Below are positions 1,418 through 7,316 of a DNA stretch of 7,316 bases, piece by piece (position 1 is the stretch's first letter; each line of letters starts with the position of its first letter). Origin of the DNA: a candidate division TA06 bacterium SM23_40 (lineage in GTDB: Bacteria; LJUI01; SM1-40); the NCBI GenBank assembly GCA_001303705.1, contig LJUI01000129.1, forward strand, positions 1 to 7,316, given 5' to 3'. The translations under genes were made by a program, and so were the position numbers. The notes under the pieces are model-generated. The model searched no databases. It saw nothing but the letters and a program-made list of their open reading frames with translations, and was not told the DNA's origin.

Positions 1418-1714
1418 ATGGCCAAAACCCAGAAGATCGACACCCAGACCTACAACTACAACTACACGTGGAAGAAGGGTGTCTGGCCGACCATGACGAT
1501 TCAGGACATCACGACTCCGGGCTGCTACGTCGATTGGCACACTGGTCATCTGTACCGGGTCAATCCGGAGATGCTCGAAGTCGGGGGCACCATCTTCAGT
1601 TGCTTCTGCTCGACTGATCCCTGGCTGGTTGTCAAGATCAGCGATAACTACCTGTTACCGTTGGACGAGGCCAGGATCCTCGCGGCCAATGCCTCCGCGA
1701 ATGTCAATTTCTAG
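1418..1714 (+). CDS. Orphan 98-residue protein, function unknown
   Basis: I do not recognise this protein. The gene is supported by an AAAGGAGG ribosome site at ideal spacing and by a very strong terminator 53 bases after its stop. Both suggest a monocistronic, well expressed unit. The product has a Lys-rich start (MAKTQKIDTQ), then a Tyr/Asn run (TYNYNYTW, 11-18), a Gly/Tyr/Trp/His-rich middle (PGCYVDWHTGHLYRVNP, 34-50), a Cys-x-Cys pair (Cys62, Cys64) plus Cys36, a hydrophobic beta-like stretch (WLVVKI, 69-74), an Ala-rich helix-like stretch (DEARILAANASA, 83-94) and a C-terminal Phe. I see no signal peptide or membrane helix, so it is probably cytosolic. Three Cys and two His might bind metal, but their spacing matches no motif I know. 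Confidence 0.75.
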   Translation: MAKTQKIDTQTYNYNYTWKKGVWPTMTIQDITTPGCYVDWHTGHLYRVNPEMLEVGGTIFSCFCSTDPWLVVKISDNYLLPLDEARILAANASANVNF

Positions 1715-1766: not shown

Positions 1767-1810
1767 GAAACGACCTGCCCGTGAGACGAACCTCACGGGC
1801 AGGTCGTTTT
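1767..1810 (+). terminator. Strong Rho-independent terminator after the 98-residue gene
   Basis: ACGACCTGCCCGTGAG (1770-1785) pairs perfectly with 1792-1807 around a 6-base loop (ACGAAC). Two A-T pairs and one G-T pair extend the stem outward. The right arm ends in TTTT (1807-1810). The stem and T-run make this a textbook intrinsic terminator. The matching A-run on the left arm is short, so any reverse-direction activity would be weaker. It isolates the 98-residue gene from the Omp85 gene. Confidence 0.93.
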
Positions 1811-1871
1811 GTGCCGCCGAGGCCCCCCTGCACCGGCCTCCTCGCTCCACCGGGTACCACCAGAATCGCCC

Positions 1872-1900
1872 TTGCGCGCAGAGCGGTGGTGGTGTATAGA
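1872..1900 (+). promoter_or_regulatory. Possible promoter for the Omp85 gene
   Basis: TTGCGC (1872-1877), a 17-base spacer and TATAGA (1895-1900) form a weak sigma70-like pair (3 of 6 and 4 of 6 consensus bases). It lies after the terminator and about 75 bases before the start codon. A separate promoter is expected there because the terminator cuts off read-through. Confidence 0.3.
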
Positions 1901-1962
1901 TGTATCATCATACCTTGCCGATAACTTCCACGCAAAGTCCATGGTTCCTCCAACCGGCCCAG

Positions 1963-1973
1963 AAGGGAAGGAG
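1963..1973 (+). promoter_or_regulatory. Purine-rich ribosome binding region of the Omp85 gene
   Basis: AAGGGAAGGAG precedes two adjacent candidate starts, ATG 1977 and GTG 1980. The AAGGAG part is only 3 nt from the ATG and 6 nt from the GTG, while the AAGGG part is 9 nt from the ATG. Either start is therefore possible, and they differ by one residue. Confidence 0.5.
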
Positions 1974-1976
1974 TCG

Positions 1977-3257
1977 ATGGTGCTGGTCCACCTCATCGCA
2001 GCCTCCGCACTCGTGCTCGGCACACTCGGTGTGGACCACGGCCCCACGGGGGTGTCGCACTGGGAGGTGATCGACAGAATCATCCTGAGAGGGAATGAGA
2101 GAACGAAGGACTTCGTTATCCTCAGGGAGCTCCGCTATGAGCCCGGCGACGAACTGAGCGAAGAGATGCTCTCAGAAGGCTCCAATCACCTGCTTAACAC
2201 GGGCCTGTTCGCCGACGTCAACTACCGCCTGGTACAGAATGAAGATCCCTCGTTCGTCGCGGTCGAGCTGGAGGTTCTCGAACGCCCCTCCTGGTATCTC
2301 CTCCCCTCTCTCGACTGGGATCCTGACAGGGGAAGGGACGACTGGAGGGAGGGAATCTCTGTCGGTCTGTCTGGCAAGAACGTCAACTTCAGGGGAGAGG
2401 CCCAGACACTGGCGGGGAATGCATGCGTGGGGGCGGAAGAGGCCGTCGAACTCAGTTGGGACACGCCGTGGGTGGGGAGCACACGGACTTCGCTCTCCCT
2501 GAAAGCCGGCTGGGAAGAGACTCGGGATCCTTTCTACGCCAGGGAGGAGACCATCGCCCGGGGTGGGCTCGGGCTGACGCGGTGGATCACCGAGCATCAC
2601 TCGGTGGGACTGGACGCGGGAATCGAGGATCGCCATCGTCGGCCCAACGACGGCTCGTCTGAGGAGGAGGAAGACGCTCTGTTCTTCACTCCCTCAGTGC
2701 GCTTCGGGTACGACTCTCGCGATCTCCGTGTCTCCCCCAGTGCAGGGAGCCTCCTCGAACTCTCGGCCACACAGTCGCGCGACTGGGCCACCGGTGACTA
2801 CGCGTCTACGACGTACGCACTCGACGCCCGACACTTCAGAAGGATCTGGGGGCCTCAGACTCTGGCGATCGGCCTCCCCTCCAAACTGAGCCGCGGGACG
2901 ATGCCGGAATATCTGGAATTACGGGTAGGTGGTGTGAATACGATCCGCGGATGGCCCCAGGGGGTTTCGCAGGGAATACATTCGGTCGTCGGGACTGTCG
3001 AGTATCGCATTCCCCTCGTAGAAAAGCAGCAGCTCCCTCTGCCGTACTTTGGACTTTGCGATTTTTCAGTCGCCTCAGCCCTGTTCGCCGACGCCGGCAT
3101 GACCTGGAGCCAGAGGCCCAGTCAGGAACACTTCCTCACAGGGTTCGGACTCGGCATCCGCATCTTCGTCCCATTCGCGGACGTCATCAGACTCGACTAT
3201 GCCTGGAATAGCGAATTCGACGGGCGCTGGCAGATCGAGAAGGACGTCAAGCTTTGA
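1977..3257 (+). CDS. Short Omp85/surface-antigen outer-membrane protein with one POTRA domain
   Basis: A 426-residue outer-membrane beta-barrel protein of the BamA/TamA/FhaC superfamily, whose members fold or move proteins across the outer membrane. A hydrophobic N-terminus (VLVHLIAASALVLGTLG, 2-18) looks like a signal peptide but lacks the usual Lys/Arg. One POTRA-like domain spans about 30-102 (VIDRIILRGNERT, then LLNTGLFADVNYRL). The barrel follows from about 105, with the typical YDSRD (245-249) and the loop-6 type motif GGVNTIRGW (318-326). An acidic stretch (SSEEEED, 227-233) is probably a loop. The last residues, DVKL, do not give the aromatic end seen in many barrel proteins. With a single POTRA it is too short for BamA itself; its client is unknown. 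An ATG at 1941 would add 12 residues, including one Lys, but has no ribosome site. Confidence 0.85.
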   Translation: MVLVHLIAASALVLGTLGVDHGPTGVSHWEVIDRIILRGNERTKDFVILRELRYEPGDELSEEMLSEGSNHLLNTGLFADVNYRLVQNEDPSFVAVELEVLERPSWYLLPSLDWDPDRGRDDWREGISVGLSGKNVNFRGEAQTLAGNACVGAEEAVELSWDTPWVGSTRTSLSLKAGWEETRDPFYAREETIARGGLGLTRWITEHHSVGLDAGIEDRHRRPNDGSSEEEEDALFFTPSVRFGYDSRDLRVSPSAGSLLELSATQSRDWATGDYASTTYALDARHFRRIWGPQTLAIGLPSKLSRGTMPEYLELRVGGVNTIRGWPQGVSQGIHSVVGTVEYRIPLVEKQQLPLPYFGLCDFSVASALFADAGMTWSQRPSQEHFLTGFGLGIRIFVPFADVIRLDYAWNSEFDGRWQIEKDVKL

Positions 3258-3264
3258 CCTGTGT

Positions 3265-4626
3265 TCAGTCCTGTCGCGGACGATACAGCCGTTCGCGTGC
3301 GATCTCGAGAGAGAGGTTGAACTCACCTGCCAGCACCTGTGCGGCCAGGCAGGCGGCGAACTCGCGCGCAGTATCGATACCCATAATGCGGAGCGCCTCG
3401 CGTCCCGGCGGAGGAATGAGCCCCTCGCTGCACGATAGAGTGCCGGCCTCAACGTTTGGCAGTTCCACTCCATAGACCAATTCGTCACCCTCCACACCGG
3501 CGTAGATGCGCTCCAACGAGGAGACGAGCGGCGAGTGGGGATTCACTTTAGTCGCCTTGTACATGCCGGCGATGATCTCTCCCCCCATCCCTGTATGGTG
3601 AAACCATCCCATCTTCTCCACGCCGCTCGCATCGAGCCTCACGAACGAGAGGAGCCGCTCTGCACTGCACTCGAAGTACTTCCCGAATGAGGCAAGGGGG
3701 ACGTGGACCTCGGCGGCCGCATATCTCCCCCGCTTGTTCCGGGGGCTCGGCTTGAGATCGCCGTCATAACCCTGTGCGATCGCACTCACCTCGACCTCGA
3801 TGCTGTGCTTCCGGAGTTCTGCGTCCACAAGCTCCTTCACCGCTCCCACTGCCTGACTGATCGCCCCGTGACCCCGATAGTTGACGAAGTCCGCGGTGAA
3901 TTCGACAAACAGGAAAAAGGAATGTGGATCGTCGGCCCTGAAGAACTCGACAGTGGCAGGCTGGCCATCCCACTTCCCCAAGATCTTTCTCAGCCGGTCT
4001 TCGAGACTCCCCATCGCGCCGCCTATGACCTTGAGGGCCCGCTCCCTCTCCTCCTCCTTCCCAAAGATGAGACCGACACATCTGCTCGCGCTCGCTCGCT
4101 GCCCCACCTTGACCCTGGCCCCGCCGAACCTGTTAATCATATGGCACCCGCGGCACACACCGATCGGCCCCAGGCCCGTGCCGTACTGCAGCAGTATCTG
4201 GAACTCCCCGTCACAGTCGCCGGTCAGACGGATCGATCCCGCGAACGAGTAATAGTCCTCGGTCCCACCGACATAGTTATTCACAAGAGGAGCGTACCGC
4301 TCCGCCGAGGAGTCGGCGGGCTTCAGCGCCCCCCTACACAACGTGCATCTCTTATCGGTGTCGGCGGCATCAAGCTCGAAGGTCGTGCGATCATGCTCGC
4401 ACACATAGCGCACCTTGTAGGGGGTTTCAGGGATAGCGATGTGCCGGAACTCGATTCCGGTTCTCTTCGCGATCCACTGCCTCCTCGCCTCGGCGGCGAG
4501 GCCGAATTGTTCGGGAGGAGCGAGACCATGAACCTCGATGAGGTACCCCTCTACTTTCCAGGGCGGCATCTCCCCCGCCTCGAGCATCGCCACGGCCTCA
4601 TCGACAGCCTTCCTCGATCCTGCCAT
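3265..4626 (-). CDS. Divergent HMG-CoA reductase-like protein with zinc-ribbon insertion, probably not a standard reductase
   Basis: The 453-residue product reads like HMG-CoA reductase from end to end (numbering from the ATG at 4626). Residues 8-63 match the N-terminal helices (AVAMLEAGEMP, AEARRQWIAKRTGIEF). NNYVGG (116-121) sits where ENVIG is expected, then DGEFQIL (139-145). VCRGCHMI (157-164) sits at VNRGCKAI. DGDLKP (288-293) sits at CTDKKP. VEAGTLSCSEGL and REALRIMGI (about 392-417) sit at VGTVGGGTGL and REALELLG. VLAGEFNLSL (431-440) matches VLAGELSLL. A zinc-ribbon-like insert, Cys76-x-His78 to Cys94-x2-Cys97, splits the N-terminal part. Catalytic Glu, Lys, Asp and His positions appear as Thr150, Leu291, Asn362 and Arg451. 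It may bind a CoA compound without reducing it; that is inference. Frames antisense to it are shadows. Confidence 0.8.
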   Translation of the reverse strand: MAGSRKAVDEAVAMLEAGEMPPWKVEGYLIEVHGLAPPEQFGLAAEARRQWIAKRTGIEFRHIAIPETPYKVRYVCEHDRTTFELDAADTDKRCTLCRGALKPADSSAERYAPLVNNYVGGTEDYYSFAGSIRLTGDCDGEFQILLQYGTGLGPIGVCRGCHMINRFGGARVKVGQRASASRCVGLIFGKEEERERALKVIGGAMGSLEDRLRKILGKWDGQPATVEFFRADDPHSFFLFVEFTADFVNYRGHGAISQAVGAVKELVDAELRKHSIEVEVSAIAQGYDGDLKPSPRNKRGRYAAAEVHVPLASFGKYFECSAERLLSFVRLDASGVEKMGWFHHTGMGGEIIAGMYKATKVNPHSPLVSSLERIYAGVEGDELVYGVELPNVEAGTLSCSEGLIPPPGREALRIMGIDTAREFAACLAAQVLAGEFNLSLEIARERLYRPRQD

Positions 4627-4808: not shown

Positions 4809-4836
4809 ATTGTACCCCGTCTGGGGAACGTGTCAA
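4809..4836 (-). promoter_or_regulatory. Near-consensus sigma70 promoter for the reductase-like gene
   Basis: Reading the minus strand, TTGACA (4836-4831) is a perfect -35 box. It is followed by a 16-base spacer and TACAAT (4814-4809), a 5-of-6 -10 box. The spacer holds the palindrome CCCC-AGAC-GGGG. The expected transcript start near 4802 gives a long leader of about 175 bases. Confidence 0.75.
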
Positions 4837-4979: not shown

Positions 4980-5918
4980 ATGGCGCTCCTCGAAGTGATA
5001 GACCTGTCGAAGAGCTTCGGCGAGACAGTGGCGGTCGACGACATCAGCTTCGATGTCGAAGAAGGCGAAATCTTCGGTCTGCTCGGCCCGAACGGTGCGG
5101 GCAAATCTACGACAGTCTCGATTCTCTCCGGCATACTGACCCCCTCACGCGGGAAGGTGGTGCTTGCCGGAATGGATGTCGTCCACAGCCCACTCGCGGC
5201 CAAGGCCATGATCGGCGTCGTTCCCCAGGAGGTCGCTCTGTACGATGAACTCTCTGCGACTGAGAACCTCTCCTTTTTCGGACGGCTGCACGGCCTGAGC
5301 GGGCCCCGGCTTCGAGAGAGGATCTCCTCCATGCTTGAGACTGTCGGCCTGGGTGAGCGTGCACGCGAGCCGGTGAAGCGATATTCCGGCGGCATGAAAC
5401 GCCGGCTCAACCTCGCGATCGGACTTCTCCACCAGCCGAAGATTCTGATCCTCGACGAGCCCACCGTGGGGATCGATCCTCAGGGCCGCGTCCGCATCCT
5501 CGAGGTCGTCCGCCGCGAGGCAGAATCTGCCTCCACAACTGTCCTCTACACCACGCACTACATGGATGAAGCGGAGTCGCTCTGCGACCGGGTTGCGATC
5601 ATGGATAGGGGACAGATTTTGGTCCAAGGGACAGTGCACGATCTAAAGATGCAGGCCGGCCAGAAGGATGTCGTCAAGATCGCCGGTTCCTTCCCGGACG
5701 AGGATTTCGCGAGCACATTCTCAGATATCGCCGGGTCCAAAGTCGGCACGGTCAAGGCCGAAGAGATGCTGATCTCCGTCGATGATGCGAAGGGGGCGTT
5801 GCCCCTGATCATCGACCGGCTGACCTCGCGTGGCGCGAGCATCAGAAAGGTGGAAGTCGAGGAACCGACACTGGAGACGCTCTTCATCCACCTGACGGGA
5901 AAGGAGCTACGAGATTGA
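4980..5918 (+). CDS. ABC-2 type exporter, ATP-binding subunit
   Basis: A 312-residue cytoplasmic ATPase that should power export by the permease encoded next to it. All motifs are intact: Walker A GPNGAGKST (36-44), Q-loop Gln83 (VVPQE), signature YSGGMKRRL (135-143), Walker B ILILDEP (155-161), D-loop GIDP (164-167) and switch His193 (YTTHYMDEAE). The C-terminal extension after about residue 220 ends in EPTLETLFIHLTGKEL, the pattern seen in ATPases of ABC-2 (DrrA/NatA/YhhJ-type) drug, ion or lipid exporters. The start is supported by GGGAG (4967-4971), 8 nt upstream, and by the promoter at 4886-4914. Its stop overlaps the permease start by 4 bases, implying translational coupling. The substrate cannot be told from sequence. 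Confidence 0.95.
   Translation: MALLEVIDLSKSFGETVAVDDISFDVEEGEIFGLLGPNGAGKSTTVSILSGILTPSRGKVVLAGMDVVHSPLAAKAMIGVVPQEVALYDELSATENLSFFGRLHGLSGPRLRERISSMLETVGLGERAREPVKRYSGGMKRRLNLAIGLLHQPKILILDEPTVGIDPQGRVRILEVVRREAESASTTVLYTTHYMDEAESLCDRVAIMDRGQILVQGTVHDLKMQAGQKDVVKIAGSFPDEDFASTFSDIAGSKVGTVKAEEMLISVDDAKGALPLIIDRLTSRGASIRKVEVEEPTLETLFIHLTGKELRD
5901..5906 (+). promoter_or_regulatory. Ribosome site supporting the permease TTG start
   Basis: AAGGAG lies 8 nt upstream of the TTG at 5915, inside the end of the ATPase gene. This spacing supports a TTG start that overlaps the ATPase stop codon. Confidence 0.75.
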
Positions 5919-7168
5919 GGGGGAGCTGGCTCATCATCGTCAAGGACTTCACGCGAAGAGCACGGGATCCCTGGTCGCTCCTGCCCATCTTGCTCCTCCC
6001 CATCGTCATCGGGGGAATCATGCACCTCTCGTTCGGTGGAATCGAGAGGGGAGGAATGCCTCGCGCCGTGCTTCTCCTGGCAGATGAAGATGAGGGCCTC
6101 GGCTCTGACATCTTCAGGACGGCTCTGGAGCAGGAACAGCTGGCCGACCTGATCGAGGTGAAGGAGGTGACAGCGGCGGATGGCCGCGCGGCGATCGATA
6201 AGGGCGAGGCATCGGGATTCCTCGTCATCCCTGCGGGGTTCACTGATAGCCTCGTCGCCGGGCATCCGATCGAGCTCCGATTAGTGCGCAATCCCGCCCA
6301 GCAGTTCCTCCCTGAGATAATCGAAGAGAGCCTGGCCATCGTCGTCTTCATCGTGGCGAAAGGGGCTCTCGTCTTCGAAGAACCGCTCCAGGCGATACAC
6401 GAAGCGCAGACCGGCACCGGGACAGGCGACTTCGCCGGACAGACACAAGAGATCAGTTCTCTCATCGGGGATGTTCTCGCACAGTGCGAAGGCCTGCTCT
6501 TCCCGCCGCTGGTCACGCTCCAGATCGAAGAGCTCGCAGGCGACTCCTCACCCGACTTCCCGATCTCAGCACTCTTTTTTCCTGCACTGATACCGCTCTC
6601 TCTCTTTTTCCTTGCCGACCTCTCCGTCAGGGATACTATCCGGGAGCACAATCGCGGGACTCTGCATAGAATCATGACGACCCCTACGTCGATGCTGGCG
6701 TTTCTCACGGGGAAGCTGGCGGGGACCCTGCTCCTCGGGGTGGTCATGTTCGCAGTCCTCGCCGGCCTGGGATCGCTCGTGTTCAAGATCGGTTGGGGAG
6801 AGAATCTGCCCGAACTGCTCGTCCTCGTCATAGGCTACCTCATCGCCGCCGCAGGGATCGAACTGATGATCTACGGGTTCCTGAAGACGGAACTGAGCGC
6901 CCAGACTCTCTCGACCATCGTTGTGATGCTGATGGGCTTGGTGGGTGGAAGCATTGTGCCGCAGCAGTTCTTCCCCCCCATACTGGAAAAAGTGAAGTAC
7001 ATCAGCATTGCCGGATGGGTACTGCAGGGATTCGATAAGGTGCTCTGGAAGGGAGCGACCTTTCCCGGCATCGCTTTGGAGCTCGTTGTCCTCACGGGAT
7101 GCGGCATCGTGACTACTCTTATTGGCTCGAGAGCGATGCTCTGGAAGCTCAGGCGTCCTGCGGGCTGA
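5915..7168 (+). CDS. ABC-2 type exporter, membrane permease subunit
   Basis: A 417-residue inner-membrane subunit that forms the export path, probably as a dimer with two copies of the ATPase. Layout: a short amphipathic N-terminus (WLIIVKDFTRRARDPW), TM1 at about 21-40, then a soluble domain of about 175 residues (41-216) expected on the periplasmic side. Five more hydrophobic segments follow at about 217-235, 269-290, 299-322, 333-350 and 383-404. A large domain between TM1 and TM2 is typical of the YhhJ/NatB-like branch of ABC-2 permeases. The cytoplasmic loop after TM2 carries RDTIREHNRGTLHRIMTTP (239-257), matching the coupling-region pattern E-x-x-x-G-T-x-x-x-x-x-x-T-P. Translation starts at TTG and overlaps the ATPase stop (TTGA). 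No terminator follows; the stop abuts a tandem repeat. Confidence 0.93.
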   Translation: MRGSWLIIVKDFTRRARDPWSLLPILLLPIVIGGIMHLSFGGIERGGMPRAVLLLADEDEGLGSDIFRTALEQEQLADLIEVKEVTAADGRAAIDKGEASGFLVIPAGFTDSLVAGHPIELRLVRNPAQQFLPEIIEESLAIVVFIVAKGALVFEEPLQAIHEAQTGTGTGDFAGQTQEISSLIGDVLAQCEGLLFPPLVTLQIEELAGDSSPDFPISALFFPALIPLSLFFLADLSVRDTIREHNRGTLHRIMTTPTSMLAFLTGKLAGTLLLGVVMFAVLAGLGSLVFKIGWGENLPELLVLVIGYLIAAAGIELMIYGFLKTELSAQTLSTIVVMLMGLVGGSIVPQQFFPPILEKVKYISIAGWVLQGFDKVLWKGATFPGIALELVVLTGCGIVTTLIGSRAMLWKLRRPAG

Positions 7169-7316
7169 TACCGTTCTTCGCTCCGACGGCGTTGTTCGTT
7201 CTGATAGCCGTTGTCCGCTCTGATGGGCGTTCTTTGCTCCGATAGGCGCTCTAGGCTCTGATTGCGTTCTTCGCTCCTACAGACGTTGTTCGCTCTCATG
7301 GCGTTGGTCGCTCTGA
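7169..7316. repeat. Degenerate tandem repeat, about 19-bp unit, 8 copies to the window edge
   Basis: Eight head-to-tail units start right after the permease stop codon: 7169-7187, 7188-7205, 7206-7224, 7225-7243, 7244-7262, 7263-7280, 7281-7299 and 7300-7316 (cut by the edge). The unit consensus is about GGCGTTSTTCGCTCTGAT, with one extra base at the front in most copies. Units are 18 or 19 bp, not a multiple of three, so the array is unlikely to be selected as coding sequence. Units differ by several substitutions, so the array is old or diverging. It may continue beyond the window. Confidence 0.85.

Follow-up and report, generated by a model that had tools for sequence, protein, structure and literature searches.

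The gene at positions 3265–4626 (minus strand) of the studied window, that is the whole 7,316-nt contig LJUI01000129.1 of the candidate division TA06 bacterium SM23_40, encodes a relative of class-I HMG-CoA reductase (HMGR) with all four catalytic residues replaced. With a probability of roughly one half, we regard it as a neofunctionalised class-I HMGR descendant with a rebuilt active site, most likely catalyzing a non-NAD(P)H-reductive reaction on a CoA thioester. The gene and its surroundings in the window are:

305–1051, endonuclease III
1418–1714, plus strand, orphan ORF of 98 aa with the N-terminus TQTYNYNYTW, no match in Pfam, NCBIfam or PHROG
within 1809–3257, Omp85/POTRA protein
3265–4626 (alternative start 4632), minus strand, HMGR-superfamily protein with replaced catalytic residues, assigned via PF00368, TIGR00533, the structure 6hr7 and a 54% identical homologue in JADHWK010000038.1
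4809–4836, minus strand, sigma-70-like promoter TTGACA-16-TACAAT upstream of the HMGR-like gene, by consensus match only
4980–7168, divergent ABC-2 transporter pair
7172–7316, degenerate tandem array (19-bp unit in 7.8 copies or 37-bp unit in 3.8 copies) cut off by the end of the contig

The reading frame is open over its full length, extending from 4632 to 3265 on the minus strand (455 aa from the first ATG, P0001), and the plus strand of this interval contains stops in the corresponding frame. The second ATG, at 4626, is the better start, since the Shine-Dalgarno-like AGGGGG precedes it by approximately 7 nt, but the first ATG by just 1 nt, and Met1 of the homologue aligns with Met3 of the studied protein. 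An earlier note, made from the sequence alone, had given the interval 3265–4626 with no strand and described an uninterrupted frame with a strong promoter; the gene is real, on the minus strand and uninterrupted, and the promoter is strong in terms of consensus match only, with 11 of 12 positions matching at 4836–4809 (two sites in the region vs. 0.6 expected). We number residues from the first ATG, so that numbers in that note are smaller by two. The GC3 value (0.75) is similar to that of the neighbouring genes.

Descent of the protein from HMGR is secure, judging by sequence comparison, and the resemblance first noticed by eye is borne out by significant profile matches. Pfam HMG-CoA_red (PF00368) covers residues 159–448 (41.2 bits with the cut-off 27, E 1.4e-10; 41.5 bits for the relative), and a profile of five canonical-type bacterial HMGR homologues is aligned by hhalign over 347 columns, residues 48–449 (P 98.7%, E 3.6e-16). 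The class-I model TIGR00533 in NCBIfam yields E 4.5e-15 and 55.5 bits, far below its equivalog cut-off of 441.8; the relative scores 42 bits. Class-II (degradative) HMGR (TIGR00532) belongs to the same superfamily, but the same NCBIfam search returned no match of our protein to this model. The best match in PDB is HMGR of Methanothermococcus thermolithotrophicus, 6hr7 (E 4.5e-11, residues 115–441), which together with 6hr8 is the closest solved class-I enzyme (EC 1.1.1.34). In the N-domain, PPWKVE corresponds to PAYKLE, and ARRQ to IRRQ, in an alignment with human and plant rows. Thus, segments of the N-, L- and S-domains are all homologous, from the N-terminal helices to the C-terminal VLAGE region, as originally proposed. 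Also retained are R161, G162, G170, G171, G254, G302, P392, G436 and E437, as well as the counterparts of human D690 and K692.

The differences from class-I HMGR are concentrated in the following segments, all on the minus strand, where invariant means identical in a family of two sequences, the window protein and its relative:

4528–4602, N-domain helices with PPWKVE, Trp25 at the position where human Tyr479 stacks on the CoA adenine; alignment with human and plant N-domains, invariant in both members
4330–4404, zinc-ribbon-like insert with Cys78, Cys96 and Cys99, the three cysteines invariant in both members; absent from canonical-type HMGRs
4162–4194, YGTGxGPIGxxRG in place of TTEGxLVASxxRG, Glu559 replaced by Thr152 and Arg568 kept as Arg161; alignments
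3853–3894, DFxNxRGHGxxS in place of the NADP-binding GDAMGMNM, D653 replaced by N251 and N658 by G256; alignments
3721–3780, cis-loop IAQGYDGDLKPSPRNKRGRY, identical in both members, Lys691 replaced by Leu293 and Lys692 kept as Lys294; alignments
3529–3606, WFxxTGMGGEIIxGMYKATKxNPH, Asn755 replaced by Glu352 and Asp767 by Asn364; alignments
3412–3447, AGxxSCxEGLxP in place of GTVGGGTxLP, with a new invariant Cys401; alignments
3265–3315, shortened C-terminal tail lacking the catalytic His and the NADPH contacts N870/R871; residue-map alignment

Moreover, the ENxxG motif is changed. The insert follows the N-domain, precedes the NxxG motif and contains RYVCEHD...CTLC in one member and RYYCEKN...CSLC in the other; a weak match to the A2L_zn_ribbon profile (E 0.01) is observed in the relative only. 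Its sequence resembles a rubredoxin-type zinc ribbon with the second Cys replaced by Asp or Asn, and the insert may bind a metal.

Residues were mapped via an alignment with seven canonical-type sequences, using a human row as the ruler for position numbers; 26 out of 26 contact positions checked had the expected letter. NADPH, HMG and CoA contacts of human HMGR were listed as in PMC7503714. All four catalytic positions are changed, as the earlier note claimed: MAFFT, HMMER and hhalign place E559 at T152, K691 at L293 and D767 at N364 within nearly ungapped motifs, while the H866 column contains R453 in the window protein and, in the relative, the Pro with which its chain terminates; the tail bearing His866 is missing or altered. 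On the other hand, the suggestion that a one-residue slip could rescue the Lys is unsupported and was rejected, since DLKP and DKKP are anchored on both sides and K294 pairs with K692 in the 6hr7, hhalign and residue-map alignments.

Beyond these four positions, the protein has lost most of the NADPH contacts and several contacts to HMG. Among the former, S626 is replaced by L, R627 by G/K, F628 by K/E, D653 by N251, M655 by R253, M657 by H255, N658 by G256 and V805 by L/V, N870 and R871 are absent, and only G656 is kept; hence, one of the six NADPH contacts considered for membership in TIGR00533 (S626, R627, D653, G656, N658, R871) is retained, and none of its catalytic residues. HMG contacts are changed at S684 (A286), K735 (L333) and N755 (E352), and retained at D690 (D292), K692 (K294) and L853. 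CoA contacts are changed at S565 (G158), N567 (C/T) and K722 (E/G), and retained at R568 (R161), with W25 preserving an aromatic residue at the adenine-stacking position Y479. Canonical HMGR chemistry is very unlikely for this protein.

A search of genome contigs, viral contigs, plasmids and 386 diverse bacterial genomes identified one full-length relative (54% identity, JADHWK010000038.1), all other matches in the bacterial genomes being canonical-type HMGR homologues with TTE(G/A), (D/E)K(K/R) and GQD. The relative comes from the Black Sea MAG BS750m-G25, the sole genome of the phylum Ca. Sucudiota (PMC11382960), and the genome of the window is likewise alone in its phylum among the genomes compared. 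As GC content is 60% in the window organism and 45% in the other, these are distinct organisms. The relative carries the same active-site substitutions, so that, for one homologue, the changes are conserved. In a small tree the pair (support 100/100) has a long stem and groups neither with the human/archaeal HMGR rows nor with the FcrA-like ones, its deeper placement being beyond the scope of such a tree. Among the papers searched, none described HMGR homologues lacking the catalytic residues.

Within six residues of nine active-site landmarks, identity of the pair is 77%, vs. 48% elsewhere (Fisher p 2.7e-7), and the cis-loop is identical over 20 residues, which implies strong constraint on the pocket and argues against decay or an idle scaffold. 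Ten columns invariant in the seven canonical-type rows are changed in the pair in the same way: E to T152, D to N251, N to G256, K to L293, N to E352, G to K362, D to N364, A to H366, G to C401 and T to E403. The two genes differ at 162, 119 and 302 first, second and third codon positions, respectively, and use different codons at 155 of the 243 identical residues. This pattern indicates that the changed site is under purifying selection and not decaying, in agreement with the earlier note, which had reasoned from the open frame. As the replacements fall in the best-conserved part of the protein, it has probably turned to a different job, and its active site is likely still in use.

The gene neighbourhood differs between the two genomes. 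The relative is flanked by a small protein, read as DUF1844, and a sugar epimerase, and no neighbour genes shared by the two loci were found. By profile search of the contigs, the HMGR-like gene is the sole HMGR homologue of its own genome, which contains the MEP-pathway genes DXR and a GHMP kinase read as IspE, and no mevalonate kinase above the cut-off; absences are provisional, as the bin is 90% complete. One weak mevalonate-kinase match (in G001) is a GHMP-kinase C-terminus cut by a contig end beside sugar-metabolism genes, probably a galactokinase. Given the MEP genes, the lack of a second HMGR and of a mevalonate kinase above the cut-off, we rejected isoprenoid supply as the likeliest role of the protein. 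HMG-CoA may well be present in the cell, as the genome encodes an HMG-CoA synthase of the archaeal type (TIGR00748, 561 bits) together with a thiolase and a zinc-ribbon/OB-fold (DUF35-like) protein; genes for a carboxylase, a hydratase and a biotin carboxylase stand in the same row, on a contig other than that of the HMGR-like gene. From gene content, this cluster reads as leucine/isovalerate-type acyl-CoA metabolism, and a direct link of the HMGR-like protein to HMG-CoA would be a lead only.

The cluster itself (L015, C182:14000–32000) spans positions 7228–14293 and comprises HMG-CoA synthase, thiolase, ChsH2-type zinc-ribbon/OB-fold protein, carboxyltransferase, enoyl-CoA hydratase and biotin carboxylase. 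The bacterium has MEP genes, and the synthase perhaps runs in reverse for leucine breakdown. At another locus of the genome (L020, C164:10000–20000, positions 764–2882), a gene of the PcrB/GGGP-synthase family adjoins that of a geranylgeranyl reductase, these being archaeal-type ether-lipid genes, reported also for MAGs of the FCB group (PMC7852524).

The fold is probably that of HMGR, and pocket positions follow the sequence alignment rather than a reliable structure. AlphaFold2 with the two-sequence alignment produced a model with mean pLDDT 37 and no HMGR match in Foldseek. Addition of a third, canonical HMGR row, which biases the model, raised mean pLDDT to 47; the first 50 Foldseek hits were then all HMGRs, starting with 6hr7 (E 3.9e-14), with TM of only 0.32. 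Extra HMGR rows for modelling were sought in viral contigs, yielding one fragment only. A class-I HMGR fragment is fused in frame with an apparent phage structural protein in a 779-aa ORF of IMGVR_UViG_3300028327_000106 (L021, 186–2525, minus strand), probably an assembly chimera.

The closest parallel is FcrA, a fatty acyl-CoA reductase related to class-I HMGR that retains all four catalytic residues, occurs in organisms without the mevalonate pathway, and may bear an N-terminal Lad or ACP domain (PMC11948995). It provides a precedent for changed substrate among HMGR descendants outside this pathway, and the window protein is likewise an HMGR descendant, with a probable new role, in an organism apparently lacking it. 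However, it has neither the four catalytic residues nor the Lad/ACP domain; Ser684 and Leu862 correspond to Glu and a bulky residue (Trp) in FcrA, and to Ala286 and Leu449 in the window protein, the last assigned by counting back from the H866 column.

Next to HMGR and FcrA, the protein probably forms a third lineage within the class-I HMGR superfamily, with a CoA thioester as its probable substrate or sensed ligand. At its CoA end, the cleft would still accept a CoA-type ligand via Arg161, Trp25, Asp292 and Lys294, and the acyl end would be lined by the new invariant Thr152, Asp290, Glu352, Lys362, Asn364, His366 and Cys401. With the CoA end kept and the acyl end carrying new residues, the reaction would most likely be other than the two-step NAD(P)H reduction to alcohol, e.g., acyl transfer, hydrolysis or addition/elimination. 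Such non-reductive chemistry is a moderate bet as the best single mechanism; against it are the loss of S565, N567 and K722 of the CoA site, the availability of just two sequences, and the differing gene neighbourhoods. A more specific version, a functional branch of deep-branching phyla with the acid/base/nucleophile set Glu352/Lys294/Cys401, no nicotinamide cofactor and a zinc-ribbon-like insert, is put forward tentatively.

The earlier note had offered a pseudoenzyme or different chemistry on a CoA-type ligand; both are compatible with all findings, and the rebuilt, probably used pocket leans to the second. As a pseudoenzyme, the HMGR fold would serve as a sensor or scaffold binding a CoA ester or another metabolite without turnover, with the insert as a partner contact surface. 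Loss of the catalytic positions and most NADPH contacts, and the Cys-rich insert absent from HMGR, fit this explanation, and pocket conservation is also compatible with a binding site. However, in pure scaffolds the ancestral active site is usually free to diverge; in the present pair this region is conserved best of all and has many newly fixed charged and Cys residues, and no partner gene is common to the two neighbourhoods. We consider this explanation somewhat doubtful.

It is unlikely that the protein is still an acyl-CoA or aldehyde reductase with moved catalytic residues (e.g., Lys294, Glu352, His366) and a changed cofactor or binding mode. To our knowledge, the known members of the HMGR superfamily are reductases. 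FcrA is among them (PMC11948995), the S-domain is present with its own conserved motif FTADFxNxRGHGxxS, and Lys294 adjoins the lost Lys; but the NADPH contacts R627, D653, N658, N870 and R871 are all lost, and retained reductases such as FcrA keep the four catalytic residues (PMC11948995). Finally, it is highly improbable that the gene is decaying or that it results from a chimera or from errors in sequencing or assembly. The window does make up an entire 7.3-kb contig from a metagenome bin, but its tetranucleotide profile matches those of two other contigs of the bin (r 0.87–0.89), the independent homologue is full-length and open in a 45% GC genome, and synonymous changes dominate.

HMGR, the target of statins in people, ranks with the most thoroughly studied enzymes and is of major importance as a drug target. 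Its superfamily was previously credited with a single kind of chemistry, which FcrA recently extended to long-chain acyl-CoAs while using the same catalytic residues. A protein with these residues replaced is present in two otherwise unknown phyla and probably has a different job there. Annotation pipelines would label it HMG-CoA reductase, crediting such genomes with a mevalonate pathway apparently missing there. A conserved branch in which the four catalytic residues are gone, little of the cofactor site is left and the pocket is nonetheless tightly constrained would offer a natural experiment on the conversion of a reductase scaffold to another function.
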